Below, in pieces: positions 5,511 to 12,160 of a stretch of 64,000 nucleotides of DNA. The DNA is taken from positions 930,001 through 994,000 of the forward strand of contig NZ_JAMZFY010000001.1 of the NCBI RefSeq assembly GCF_025457605.1. The letters run 5' to 3'. Each line of letters starts with the position of its first letter. Within the stretch, counting starts at the first letter, position 1. The notes beneath the pieces were generated by a model. It was not told where the DNA came from. It did not search any database and saw only the letters and a program-made list of their open reading frames with translations. The position numbers and the translations under genes were made by a program. Source of the stretch: Haloarcula laminariae. Its GTDB lineage: Archaea > Halobacteriota > Halobacteria > Halobacteriales > Haloarculaceae.

Positions 5511-6854
5511 TCAGAGCGGCGCGAAGAAGGCGGCGTCCTCGACGAGGAACAGCTCGTTGATTCCCAGCCCGAGCGTCGCTATGACGGCGACGACGACGAC
5601 CACCCGAACCGTCCAGAGCCACACGTCACCGCCGGCGCCCAGCCCGTCGGTCCCAGCGCGCAGCTCGTCGACCGCGTCGGTCCCGAGCACCCAGCCGACG
5701 AAAATCGTCGTGGCGAGCACCGACAGCGGAAGGAACAGCTGGTAAGCGACGCTGTCGAACCAGGTCAGCCACGCGGTGTCCCAGGCCGAGGGCAGGCCGA
5801 GCACGAAGAGCCCGGCGCCGACCGCGGGCGCGAGGACCGTCCGGGGCACGTCGTAGTTGTCGTTGGCGTAAGCGACCGTTACCTCCAGCAGGCTGATGGC
5901 CGAGGACAGCGCCGCGATGAGGACGACGCCGAAGAAGACGACGCCGAACAGCCGGCCGAAGGGGACCGAGCCGAAGCCGGCGGCCGTCGCGACGAACAGG
6001 GCGCCGGCGCCGCCGGTCTGGGTCGTGATGTCCGCGCCGATGGTCAGCAGGATGGGGAAGACGACCAGCCCGGCCAGGACGCCCACGAGCGTGTTCGTCA
6101 CGACGATGGCGCCGCCGTCGACGATGAGGTTGTCGTCGTCACCCACGTAGGAGGAGTAGGTCACCATGATGGCCATCCCCAGCGAGAGCGTGAAGAAGGC
6201 CTGTCCGACCGCGAAGGGGATGATGCTCCCGGCGTTTGCCGTCATCGTGCTCAGGTCCGGCGAGAGGAAGAACTCGTAGCCCGCTCCCGCGCCGGGGAGG
6301 GTCGTCACCCACACCGCGAGTGCGATCATAAGCAGGAGGATGCTCGGCACCATGAGCTTCGTCGCCGCCTCGATGCCGTCCTCGATGCCGAGCGAGACGA
6401 TACCGACCACCAGCGCCAGGAACAGCGCCTGGGCGAGGACGGCTTCGGGACCGGCCGACACCGCGCCGAAGTACCCCGCCGGGTCCGCGAAGTACGCGCC
6501 GCGGACGCTCCCGAGGATGTAGCGCAACACCCACCCGCCGACGACGTTGTAGTACGAGAGTATCCAGAACCCGGTGACAACGGCCAGTCCGCCGACCGCC
6601 CGCCAGGGCCCGTGGCCGAGCCGCTCGAAGGCGTCGACGGCGTTGACGTTGGTTCGTCGCCCCAGCACGAACTCGGCGAGCATCGCCGGGAACCCGATGA
6701 CGGCGACGGCGATGAGGTAGAAGGCGACGAACGCGGCGCCGCCGTTAGTCGCGGTCTTGAACGGGAACTGCCAGAGGTTCCCGAGACCGACTGCGCTCCC
6801 GATCGCTGCGATGATGAACCCGGGCCGTGTGGCCCAGGTCTCCCGGTCGGACAT
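5511..6854 (-). CDS. SNF-family sodium-dependent transporter, paralogue
   Basis: 447 residues; paralogue of the downstream transporter, sharing the first-helix motif (IGSAVGLGNLWQFPFKTATNGG) and length. ATG at 6854 (MSDRETW) is chosen over an in-frame TTG three codons upstream because it lies about 30 bp below a good TATA box. The pair may handle different substrates or act as two subunits, as is common for tandem haloarchaeal SNF genes; the sequence does not decide this. Confidence 0.9.
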   Translation of the reverse strand: MSDRETWATRPGFIIAAIGSAVGLGNLWQFPFKTATNGGAAFVAFYLIAVAVIGFPAMLAEFVLGRRTNVNAVDAFERLGHGPWRAVGGLAVVTGFWILSYYNVVGGWVLRYILGSVRGAYFADPAGYFGAVSAGPEAVLAQALFLALVVGIVSLGIEDGIEAATKLMVPSILLLMIALAVWVTTLPGAGAGYEFFLSPDLSTMTANAGSIIPFAVGQAFFTLSLGMAIMVTYSSYVGDDDNLIVDGGAIVVTNTLVGVLAGLVVFPILLTIGADITTQTGGAGALFVATAAGFGSVPFGRLFGVVFFGVVLIAALSSAISLLEVTVAYANDNYDVPRTVLAPAVGAGLFVLGLPSAWDTAWLTWFDSVAYQLFLPLSVLATTIFVGWVLGTDAVDELRAGTDGLGAGGDVWLWTVRVVVVVAVIATLGLGINELFLVEDAAFFAPL

Positions 6855-6878
6855 AGTACCCAAATCATGCGCCTGCCC

Positions 6879-6889
6879 CTTTTTAAACG
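6879..6889 (-). promoter_or_regulatory. TATA box of the SNF transporter operon
   Basis: On the minus strand the sequence reads GTTTAAAAAGG, centred about 30 bp before the ATG at 6854. This predicts a leaderless or nearly leaderless transcript. Confidence 0.6.
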
Positions 6890-6930
6890 CATATGTTTCT
6901 TTTCGGGCCGGAGGAACACTGCCGGCAGCG

Positions 6931-7656
6931 TCAGAGGCTCGCGAGGTTCTGCCGGAGCTTGATGGTCGCCGTCATCAGCGTGGTCGCGGTCATGATGACG
7001 AAGACGACCTGGATGTGCAGGACGACGATGCGGTCGAGGCCGACGAGCACGGCCAGGTCGAGCGCGGGGACCAGCGCCGCAAACAGCAACACCGGGAGCA
7101 GATGCCGCAACAGCGTGTCGACGACGGTGCCCTGAACGCGCGCCTCGGCCGCGCCGCGCCGGCCGTAGAGCCCGCCCGCCAGCGCGAACCCGAGGGCGCT
7201 CAGCCCGGAGGCCGCGAGCAAGAGCGGGCGGCGCCCGACCAGCGCGAGCCCGGCGAAGACGACCGCGACACCGACGATGGCCGCCCGCGTCAGGCGGCGC
7301 TCCGAGCCGCCACCGTCGCCGGTCGTCGCCGGAACGACGCTGCGATACAGCACCCGGAGCGCGACGGCCAGCACGAACACCGCCCCGAGCAACAGCCCCA
7401 TCTTGAACGGGAGGACGTAGACGGTCAGCAGTTCGACCAGCCCGAGCAGGGCGAACCCGACGGCGAGCAGCCCGGCGAGGACGAGGAAGTCCCACAGCCC
7501 GTCCCCGGTTCCGAGCTCGCTCGTCAGCCGGTTCTGGTAGGCGTAGTAGCTAAAGCGGACCCCGAGCACCGCGAGCAGCGTCAGCGCGATGAAGAAGATG
7601 AAGGTCAGGTTGGGGTTGTTCGGCGCGTACGGCAGGCCGACGGCAACGCTATTCAT
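6931..7656 (-). CDS. Polytopic membrane protein coupled to the pseudokinase gene
   Basis: 241 residues, mostly hydrophobic. About seven membrane helices can be drawn (near 18-38, 58-78, 85-105, 127-145, 147-165, 185-203, 208-230) with few charged residues inside them. I do not recognise the family. The ATG at 7656 overlaps the TAG stop of the upstream HEAT/kinase-like gene (ATGAATAG), so translation is probably coupled and the two proteins may form one membrane-associated unit. A GTG six bases upstream is an alternative start. Confidence 0.75.
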   Translation of the reverse strand: MNSVAVGLPYAPNNPNLTFIFFIALTLLAVLGVRFSYYAYQNRLTSELGTGDGLWDFLVLAGLLAVGFALLGLVELLTVYVLPFKMGLLLGAVFVLAVALRVLYRSVVPATTGDGGGSERRLTRAAIVGVAVVFAGLALVGRRPLLLAASGLSALGFALAGGLYGRRGAAEARVQGTVVDTLLRHLLPVLLFAALVPALDLAVLVGLDRIVVLHIQVVFVIMTATTLMTATIKLRQNLASL

Positions 7657-8998
7657 CGTCACCCCGCAGGCTCCGGAGCTCCTGTCGGAGATGGGCCGCC
7701 GTCTCGTAACGGGCCAGCTTCCGCCGCGCCATCGCCTTGCCGACGATGTCGTCGACGGCGGGCGGGACGTCCGCGACGGCCGAGGGCTCGGGCGGGTCCG
7801 TCGACAGAACCGCCTCCCGGACCGCGTCGAACGTTCCGGTGTAGGGCGGCTGTCCGGTGAACAGCCGGTAGCAGACCGCGCCGAGCCCGTAGATGTCGGT
7901 CGCGTGGTCGATACGCCCGAACCGCCGCTGGTAGTACTCCGGGGCGGCGTAGTGGGGGTCGAGATACTGCGAGGGGTCGAAGCGGTGGCGGTACACCGAC
8001 AACAGCCCGGGGTTGTCGAGCAGCGGCGGCTGTCTGTCGCTCTCCGCGATGACGTTCCCGTAGTAGGCGACCGATTCGGCGTCGATACCGGCGTGGACGA
8101 CCCCGCGCTCGTGGAGCGTCGCGACCGCCTCGGCCAGCTGTTCGGCGTGCCAGGCGGCCTCGGTCGGCGGGACCCGCTCGCGGTCGGCCAGCGTCTCCGC
8201 CGTGTACTCCGTCGCCAGCCACAGCCGGGGCTCGTCCTGCCAGTCGTACAGCGTCAGCACGTTCTCGACGTCGGAGACAGTTTGCCACTCGTCCAGCCGC
8301 GTTGAGAGCGCCGTCCGGAAGGCGTCGTCGGTCCCCTCAACCCCGTCGAGCAGGCGCAGCGCGACGGCGTGTTCGGTCTCGTCGACGACGCCGAGCGTGC
8401 GGTAGGTGTCGCCGTAGCGCCGGCGCTCCCGCGGCGCCAGCACCGCGAGACTGTCGAACCGACTCTCGTACTCGACGAGCGAACGCCACTCCGCGTCGGC
8501 CGCCCGCGGCCGCTGGCCGATGGTGTTGCCGTCCTCGTCGTCGGCGGCGCGGCGCTGGTCGTCCTCGTCCTCGTCGTCCGTGTACACCTGCCGCCCGTCG
8601 CCGTCGGTCCCGGAGCCGGCGACCCTGGTCCGCCCCCGCTCGCGGTTGTCGGTCCCGCCCGTCGGCGTCGAGCGCTCGACCTCGTGTCTGGCCCCCAGGC
8701 TCGTCTCCCACCGGTCGAGCCGGTCCTCGACGACCGCGGGGTACCGGTCAGCGACGTATTCGAGCGCGAGTTCGGCTGCCAGGCTCTCGTCAGTGCGGTC
8801 CGCGAGGCGGCCCACGAGCGAGGCCACGACGCCGGGATGGGCGTCGGCGACGACACACAGCGCCGTCGCCGCCCCCAGGCGGACCTGCCGGTCGCCGTCG
8901 TCGAGGAGGTCGAGCAGCCGCGGGACCCGGTCCCGGTCCACGTCCGTCGCGGTGAGGACCTCGGCGACGAGCGCTCGGGGGTCTCTCTCCGAGGTCAT
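7649..8998 (-). CDS. HEAT-repeat protein with a degenerate protein-kinase domain
   Basis: 449 residues in three parts. An alpha-helical HEAT-like region (about 1-105) is followed by a charged low-complexity linker (about 110-180, runs of D and E) and a protein-kinase fold (about 185-445). The late kinase motifs remain: YAAPEYY (APE) and [19 protein letters not shown] (DxxGxG helix). The catalytic loop HRDxKxxN is replaced by HAGIDAES and DFG by DNPG, and no clear AxK lysine is present. It should not phosphorylate by the usual mechanism and is probably a scaffold or sensor. It is divergent from htrII with about 134 bp between them. Confidence 0.85.
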
Positions 8999-9022: not shown

Positions 9023-9032
9023 CCCTAAACGC
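9023..9032 (-). promoter_or_regulatory. TATA-like element of the pseudokinase operon
   Basis: The minus strand reads GCGTTTAGGG about 25-34 bp before the ATG at 8998. It is back to back with the htrII TATA box about 75 bp away, so a regulator binding between them could control both directions. Confidence 0.5.
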
Positions 9033-9102
9033 ATCACTGTTTTGGTGGGTAGTGGCGCGTCTCTCCCCCCAGTTTTCAACGGTGAGAATAGCGGAGGAAC
9101 GC

Positions 9103-9109
9103 TTTATAA
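9103..9109 (+). promoter_or_regulatory. TATA box of the htrII-sopII operon
   Basis: TTTATAA lies about 27 bp before the ATG at 9133, predicting transcription start within a few bases of the start codon. The segment TGAGAGGAAAAGG just before the ATG may act as a weak ribosome-binding site if a short leader is made. Confidence 0.65.
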
Positions 9110-9132
9110 CGTCATTCCCTGAGAGGAAAAGG

Positions 9133-11454
9133 ATGCCAACAGACCGGGATTCGCCCTTGCCGAGTTTCGTCGGCGACAGCTACGCCGCACGGCTCGGTGT
9201 CGCGCTCGCGTTCGCTATCGTCGTCATCGTCGCCTTCGGCACTGTCATCAGTGCCCAGGCGTCGTCGACGCTCGCCGAGGACGTCGAGGGCGACACGACA
9301 GCGCTGTCCGACACGCAGGCGGCACAGCTCGACGGCTGGCTGACCACGGCCAGGCGGGACGTCCGGACGACCTCCCGCCTGCCCGTGTTCGCGGACGGGT
9401 CACAGTCGGCCGTCCAGAACAGGCTCGCGGGCCTCGTCGAGAACGACGAAGTACCGCCCGACGTCGTGGCGGTCCACTACGTCAACACGGCGAACGGGAC
9501 CATCACCGCCAGCTCGAACGAGCAGTTCGTCGGCGTCAACGCCACCGAGCAGGGCGCGCCCTTCGCCACTGACCCGCCCGAGTTCGGCGGACCCGACGAC
9601 ACTCACGTCACCGACCCGTTCTCGGTCTCCGTCGTCGACCACCCGATCATCGCCGTCGTCTCGCCGGTGGCCGGGGCGGAGAACCGCGCTATCGTCTACA
9701 TGACCGACCTCGAAGCGCGGACCGAGTCGATATCGAACCAGCGCGAGGGGTCCTACACGACCGTCGTCAACGGGGACGGGGAGTTCATCGCCCATCCGAA
9801 CGTCTCGACTATCGGCTCGACCGCACCGGTCGCCTCGGGCGAGGACGACCCGATTAGCTCGCTCGACAGCGGCCAGAGCACGTTCGTCGAGACCGACGAG
9901 ATGCTGATGGGCATCTCACGGCTCGAAGGCCACGACTGGTCGGTGATGGTCCACGCCGACCGGACCCAGGCCTACGCCCTCGCGGACCAGATAAACTCGG
10001 ACCTCGTTGGGCTCATCCTGCTTGCGGTCATCAACCTCGGACTCGTCGGTGTAACCATCGGCGGCAGCACTATCGCCTCGCTGCGCCGGCTCTCCTCGCA
10101 GGCCGAAGCGATGGCCGACGGCGACCTCGACGTCGACCTCGAAACCACTCGCGGCGACGAGTTCGGCACGCTGTACGGGGCCTTTGACAACATGCGGTCG
10201 AACCTACGGGCCAAGATTTCCGACGCCGAAGCCGCCCGCGAGGAGGCGGAGTCGGCCAAACGTGAGGCCGAGGAGGCCCGGACCGAGGTCGAGGCCGAGC
10301 GCAACGAGATGCAGGCCCTCTCGAGCCACCTCGAACTGAAGGCCGAGGAGTACTCCGGCACGCTGGAGTCGGCCGCCGACGGCGACCTCACCGCCCGCGT
10401 CGACACCGAGAGCATGAGCGACGCGATGGCCGACGTCGGCCGCGAGATAAACGCGACGCTGGACGCCCTGGAGGCGACTATCGCGGACATGCAGGCGTTC
10501 GCCGACAACGTGATGGGGGCCAGCGACCGGGTCGAGACCAACGCCGAGCGTGTCGGGATGGCCAGCCAGCAGGTCTCCCAGTCCATCGAGGAGATATTCG
10601 ACGGGGCAACCGAACAGAGCGAGCGCTTACAGGAGGGGTCGGCCGAGATGGACAACCTCTCGGCGACGGCCCAGCAGGTCGCCGCCTCGGCCCAGGAGGT
10701 CGCGAACACCTCCGAGGCCGCCGCCGAGGTCGGCGAGGACGGCCGCGAGGCCGCACAGGAGGCCATCGCGGAGATGAGCGCCATCGACGACGAGACCGCG
10801 GAGACGGTCCGCGAGATAAACGCTCTCGAAGGTGACCTGGAGGAGATCGGCGACATCGTGAGCGTCATCACGAACATCGTCGAGCAGACGAACATGCTGG
10901 CGCTGAACGCCTCCATCGAGGCCGCACACGCCGACAAGGACGGGGACGGCTTCGCCGTCGTCGCCGACGAGATAAAGGGCCTCGCCGAGGAGACCAAAGA
11001 GGCCGCCGCGGACATCGAGGACCGCATCGAGCGCATCCAGTCCCAAGCTGGCGACACGGTCGAGACCATCGAGTCGACGAGCGAGCGCATCTCCGAGGGG
11101 GTCGACACCGTCGAGGAGGCCGTCGACGCCCTGGAGACCATCGTCGAGTACACCGAGGAGGTCGACACCGGTATCCAGGAGATAGACCACGCGACGGAGG
11201 AGCAGGCCCGGACCGCACAGGACGTACAGGCGACCATCGACGAACTGAGCAGCATCTCCCAGCAGACGGCGGCCGAGGCCGACACCGTCGCCGGCGCGGC
11301 CGACGACCAGGCGGCCTCCATCGAGACGGTGACCGACTCCGCCAGGGAGCTGCGCGACCGGGCCGAGGACCTCGAATCCGTTCTCGGCCAGTTCGAGGTC
11401 GACGGGGACGGGACGGACGACACGACCGAGGCGGCCGCCGCGGGGGACGACTGA
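9133..11454 (+). CDS. htr2: Sensory rhodopsin II transducer (methyl-accepting, with a large ectodomain)
   Basis: 773 residues. First membrane helix about 19-42, extracellular domain about 43-285, second helix about 290-312, HAMP about 316-365, a second HAMP-like segment about 395-450, and the methyl-accepting signalling domain to the end. The hairpin [17 protein letters not shown] and [15 protein letters not shown] are canonical. The overall size resembles Halobacterium HtrII (765 aa), which also senses serine, rather than Natronomonas HtrII (534 aa), which lacks the ectodomain. ATG at 9133 is chosen from the TATA position and the first helix. It precedes sopII by one base. Confidence 0.93.
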
Positions 11455-11455
11455 G

Positions 11456-12160
11456 ATGACAACGATAACGACCTGGTTCACGCTGGGACTGCTCGGCGAA
11501 CTGCTCGGGACCGCGCTGCTGGCGTACGGGTACACGCTGGTCCCCGAAGCGACGCGCAAGCGGTATCTGCTGCTGGTGGCCATCCCCGGCATCGCTATCG
11601 TCGCCTATCTCCTGCTCGTGCTGGGTATCGGCGCCCTCGACGGCGGCGGCCACACCGTCTACGTGGTCCGGTACGTCGACTGGCTGCTGACGACGCCGAT
11701 AAACGTCCTCTATCTCGGACTGCTCGCCCAGGCCGACCGCGGGACTATCGGCAAGCTGGTCGGGCTCCAGGCGCTGACCATCGTCTTCGGCTTCGCCGGT
11801 GCGATGGCGAGTGGCGCGCTCAGCTACGCGCTCTTTGCGGTGGGCGCGGTCGCCTTCGCCGGCGTCGTCTACCTGCTGTACGGCGACGTGGCCGACTCGG
11901 CCGTTGCCGCCCTCTCGGACGTCGAGGGCAGCCTCTACCGGACGCTGCGGAACTTCGTCGTCGTCCTCTGGTCGGTCTACCCCGTCGTCTGGCTGCTCGG
12001 CGCGGCCGGCATCGGCCTGATGGACGTCGAGACGGCGTCGCTGGTCATCGTCTACCTGGACGTGGTGACGAAGGTCGGCTTCGGGACCATCGCGCTCCAC
12101 GCCTGGATGACGATGGACGCCGACACCGTCACAGAGGGGACTGCCGTAACGGCCGACTGA
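11456..12160 (+). CDS. sop2: Sensory rhodopsin II (phoborhodopsin)
   Basis: 234 residues and seven helices. RYVDWLLTTP gives the counter-ion Asp75, and YLDVVTKVGFG gives Asp202, Thr205 and the retinal Lys206. The proton-donor position of pumps is Tyr86 (Phe in Natronomonas SRII), so this is a sensor, not a pump. Tyr175 and Thr205 match the Tyr174/Thr204 pair needed for SRII signalling. Tyr200 matches Tyr199 at the transducer interface, but the Thr189 position is Asp190. It mediates the repellent response to blue-green light through the adjacent transducer, with which it is clearly co-transcribed. Confidence 0.95.
   Translation: MTTITTWFTLGLLGELLGTALLAYGYTLVPEATRKRYLLLVAIPGIAIVAYLLLVLGIGALDGGGHTVYVVRYVDWLLTTPINVLYLGLLAQADRGTIGKLVGLQALTIVFGFAGAMASGALSYALFAVGAVAFAGVVYLLYGDVADSAVAALSDVEGSLYRTLRNFVVVLWSVYPVVWLLGAAGIGLMDVETASLVIVYLDVVTKVGFGTIALHAWMTMDADTVTEGTAVTAD

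Follow-up and report, generated by a model that had tools for sequence, protein, structure and literature searches.

A kinase-fold protein lacking catalytic residues and a seven-helix membrane protein encoded as a pair in Haloarcula laminariae and other haloarchaea

The locus and its intergenic region

The DNA analysed (the window) is a stretch of 64,000 nucleotides of Haloarcula laminariae (NCBI RefSeq assembly GCF_025457605.1, contig NZ_JAMZFY010000001.1, positions 930,001 to 994,000 of the forward strand), and positions given below are those of the window. Two genes on its minus strand, for a kinase-fold protein (PSK) and a membrane protein (MEMB), diverge from the genes of a transducer and of sensory rhodopsin II on its plus strand:

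7656-6931, minus strand: MEMB, 241 aa; a seven-TM protein with predicted N-out/C-in topology
8998-7649, minus strand: PSK, 449 aa; HEAT-like at its N-terminus (residues 7-109), followed by a disordered acidic linker (111-164) and the pseudokinase domain (~166-444)
~9030-9048, minus strand: promoter-like block 5' of PSK, reading CACCAAAACAGTGAT; conserved in an alignment of ten relatives
9071-9113, plus strand: htrII promoter block, TTxTCA...TGAGAATxGCGGAGGAA...CTTTA with a TATA-like CTTTATAA; conserved in the same alignment
9133-11454, plus strand: htrII, transducer; a divergent and apparently ancestral neighbour of PSK-MEMB, for which obligate partnership is not supported
11456-12160, plus strand: sopII, sensory rhodopsin II; as for htrII, an apparently ancestral neighbour without support for obligate partnership

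The preliminary description of this DNA had the coordinates of PSK and MEMB, and their divergence from htrII-sopII, right. It also took the MEMB ATG to overlap the PSK stop; the two frames do overlap, by 8 nt, but the ATG (7656-7654) sits inside the PSK frame ahead of the stop codon (7651-7649), and the two codons are separate. The back-to-back TATA boxes about 75 bp apart that had been proposed for the PSK-htrII intergenic region are, in part, what the alignment of ten relatives retains: two divergent promoter-like blocks are kept, ~70 bp apart, but the block on the PSK side is a ATATCACTGTTTTGGTG-like element and not an obvious TATA.

A kinase fold without its catalytic residues, and its seven-helix partner

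Pkinase is the top Pfam match of PSK (E 9e-12). The AlphaFold2 model of the protein (mean pLDDT 87) has six N-terminal HEAT-like helices, a disordered stretch coinciding with the acidic linker, and then a kinase fold, to which the nearest solved structures are PknB-type kinases (best Foldseek E 7e-13, for PknB itself). Both the HEAT-like N-terminus and the acidic linker had been recognised beforehand, and the model agrees with both; Pfam matches of PSK to HEAT are below the cut-off, and HEAT_2 is matched by 16 of 48 PSK homologues at E values of up to 0.1.

PSK shares with Hanks-type Ser/Thr kinases (such as PknB of M. tuberculosis) the kinase fold, APE, DxxG and the subdomain XI Arg. These three motifs are, together with the HRD His, invariant across the 48 homologues on which the motif counts are based. 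What separates PSK from PknB-type kinases is replacement of the β3 Lys, the HRD Asp and the DFG Asp (and no GxGxxG loop was seen in PSK). The β3 Lys position, whose loss had previously gone unremarked, is R215 in PSK; 33 of the homologues have Arg there and two have Lys. The HRD Asp position (G304 in PSK) is occupied by Asp in none, being Gly in 35, Ala in nine, Ser in three and Thr in one; at the DFG Asp position (N329), 32 homologues have Asn and 10 have Asp. With all three residues replaced, the designation of PSK as a dead kinase is upheld, and its catalytic loop HAGIDAES, its APE and its DxxGxG read as originally reported. The DFG motif had been given as DNPG; its Asp is indeed gone, but N329-P330-G331 is the better reading at that position, with D328 immediately preceding it.

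A pseudokinase has been defined (PMC12599244) as a kinase fold that has lost one or more residues of the catalytic triad, and PSK is such a protein, its fold present and its triad residues lost. Judged by these motifs, PSK is dead as a family and not through decay, and loss of the HRD base appears to be ancestral to that family, including a paralogous copy associated with glnA-lrp. Some members may nevertheless bind nucleotide still, because the DFG Asp and the β3 Lys persist in the 10 and two homologues, respectively, noted above. Catalysis at an unorthodox site, for example by an Asp shifted to the Lys position of HRDxK (where Asp is found in 43 of 48 members), would have to operate in spite of the joint loss of β3 Lys, HRD Asp and DFG Asp in most members, and is very unlikely. 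The paralogous pseudokinase (L096-L101; ~42% identity) has the same dead motifs, occurs without MEMB, and lies near glnA-lrp at five of six loci.

MEMB is confidently modelled as seven long helices (mean pLDDT 88.6). Its positive charge is mostly on the odd-numbered loops and the C-tail, a distribution that suggests an N-out/C-in topology and would place loop 5 (VQGTxxDTLLRH) and the C-tail (IKLRQNL), which are among its most conserved segments, on the cytoplasmic side. Searches of Pfam and NCBIfam yielded no match to MEMB, and such resemblance to 7-TM folds as Foldseek reported was only weak (best E 0.0097). (An iterated HMM of MEMB was discarded after straying onto overlapping frames.) The resemblance to microbial rhodopsins (PF01036) consists of seven helices, the N-out/C-in arrangement and a weak likeness of fold (best E 0.02, TM ~0.5); on the other side are the lack of a Pfam or profile match (hhalign probability 0.6) and of any Lys within TM7 (residues 209-229), on account of which MEMB is judged not to be a rhodopsin. 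HisKA_7TM (PF16927), the likewise seven-TM domain of haloarchaeal histidine kinases, is common as an input domain in the same genomes, but profile comparison with it was negative (hhalign probability 1.9) and MEMB has a gene of its own, which is paired with that of a pseudokinase. A Brp-like retinal enzyme was rejected on the lack of a Pfam, NCBIfam or profile match. MEMB was not found on PLSDB plasmids.

The pairing of the two genes, which the preliminary description had proposed from this one locus, is conserved. In a survey of neighbourhoods across haloarchaea, with loci gathered through MEMB homology and five distant stand-alone MEMB-like loci left out of the count, PSK lies directly upstream of MEMB on the same strand at 70 of 75 loci, in five families. 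The five that break the pattern are L086, L089 and L093 (MEMB fragment), L151 (contig end) and L163 (PSK inverted nearby). Purifying selection acts on PSK and MEMB alike, pairwise dN/dS being ~0.20-0.33 for the former and ~0.09-0.20 for the latter. A gene for a REC-HalX response regulator follows just downstream of MEMB at 11 of 13 loci examined in family f17 (listed for L088, L089 and L155-L162). Distant MEMB-like proteins without an adjoining PSK are encoded at L152, L153 and L172-L174, and CheW is absent from some of the genomes concerned; G179 has a distant MEMB-like protein only and no PSK.

Neighbourhood, light and taxis

Co-occurrence with sopII was surveyed, and linkage within the Haloarculaceae is conserved: htrII-sopII divergently adjoins PSK at 37 of 48 pair loci, in eight genera (genus g13 has an extra gene in between), and at some of these loci the outer flanks are mostly changed. 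This favours reading PSK-MEMB as an accessory devoted to signalling by sensory rhodopsin II, one that might, for instance, tune the output or the assembly of HtrII. The genes for TFB, SDR, GDPD and NSS are also often retained near the pair in this family, however, so that slow decay of synteny explains much of the linkage, and the placement beside htrII-sopII looks like an ancestral neighbourhood rather than a fixed partnership. Distribution also argues against the accessory role. An obligate accessory of SRII-HtrII should occur only together with sopII-htrII, and this fails in eight of 17 tested pair-bearing genomes, which lack rhodopsin genes of any kind (same-genus relatives G023 and G026 among them). 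Conversely, many genomes of the Haloarcula group have sopII-htrII without the pair, and beyond the Haloarculaceae the pair is found away from sopII, among other neighbours. Taken together, these observations leave little probability to the accessory role.

On the tree of the TFB gene, the state of the pair changes at least two times and that of sopII at least six times. Between the rhodopsin-less G023 and G026, dN/dS is 0.26 for PSK and 0.19 for MEMB. Since the pair and sopII have been lost separately, and since genomes without rhodopsin keep the pair under purifying selection, a fixed functional tie of PSK-MEMB to light is unlikely. The earlier suggestion of a module that ties light or chemotaxis signals to another output accordingly loses its necessary connection with light, while a wider connection with taxis is possible but confounded. 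(At L064, in G025, a relic of sopII interrupted by a stop codon, at ~6719-6970 of that locus, adjoins an intact PSK-MEMB pair.)

As to taxis, CheW is present in 75 of 75 genomes with a strong MEMB match (E < 1e-50) and in 237 of the 317 remaining genomes (Fisher p 5e-9, kinship ignored); within the family to which the window belongs, the corresponding figures are 38 of 38 and 38 of 55 (p 5e-5, kinship likewise ignored). With urease as a control the figures are 92 of 108 overall and 42 of 45 in the window's family, and part of the CheW signal is therefore due to lifestyle or shared descent. In a single lineage of family f12 the pair is close to taxis genes, with ~9 kb between it and a CheW gene on the margin of the arl/che cluster (L205-L206, in G092) and ~20-24 kb in relatives. 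PSK-MEMB is possibly linked to taxis in a broad sense, with the evidence confounded by ancestry and lifestyle.

Other neighbours bear on a role in the cell envelope or in transport, for which the mycobacterial MviN pseudokinase domain offers an analogy: the pseudokinase might gate its membrane partner. MEMB is polytopic, and genes for transporters, GDPD and glycosyltransferases are found nearby in some lineages, but such neighbours vary from family to family and it matches no transporter family in searches of family libraries. We consider this role rather doubtful.

A possible pseudokinase scaffold at the membrane

What is directly supported is that PSK has lost its catalytic residues, that the folds are predicted as described, that the genes are paired and that they are under purifying selection. 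The reading that we prefer, with middling confidence, makes PSK-MEMB a membrane-anchored pseudokinase scaffold beneath a seven-TM protein, perhaps modulating taxis and not specific for light. The two proteins would form a two-gene signalling module, with loop 5 and the C-tail of MEMB on the cytoplasmic side, where MEMB would anchor PSK through a presumed contact and might relay a signal to it. PSK, unable to phosphorylate in the usual way, would act as an allosteric adaptor or scaffold. Joined by the flexible acidic linker, its kinase-fold and HEAT-like domains might bring together or gate signalling proteins that act further downstream, those of the taxis or two-component machinery being the most plausible. 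The stimulus would not be light as such. A more far-reaching proposal is that MEMB founds a novel class of seven-helix receptors in archaea, whose signals reach taxis or response regulators by way of a pseudokinase adaptor dedicated to them, where other receptors use a histidine kinase or a methyl-accepting transducer; this seems to us distinctly improbable.

Membrane-linked dead kinase domains are known from the bacterial pseudokinase families ActPs2 and ActPs3 (MviN). In ActPs2, the β3 Lys is Arg, the HRD Asp has become Asn, DFG is deleted, and TM regions commonly follow C-terminally in the same protein (PMC12599244). PSK is comparable in its Arg and its presumed membrane link; it differs in having Gly or Ala for the HRD Asp, an NVG-like DFG, a separate gene for the seven-TM protein and an added HEAT-like domain. 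ArnC and ArnD of Sulfolobus, which regulate the archaellum and affect archaeal motility, share the kinase fold with PSK but are active kinases (PMC5300886). Elsewhere, many kinase-domain genes are crowded into short tracts (L210 and L211 at G058:C1:1464500-1500000, and G055:C2:27000-120000); in G058 three such genes retain an HxDxKxxN motif, and the frame of one of these three begins like Hsp70.

In a literature search of partial coverage, neither the PSK-MEMB pair nor any haloarchaeal pseudokinase family was found described. Work on signalling by pseudokinases has dealt chiefly with eukaryotes and a few bacteria. PSK-MEMB combines an unclassified seven-TM protein with a conserved archaeal pseudokinase that is dead in several haloarchaeal families and is under selection, and, some haloarchaea being genetically tractable, would offer an archaeal test case of kinase folds as scaffolds.
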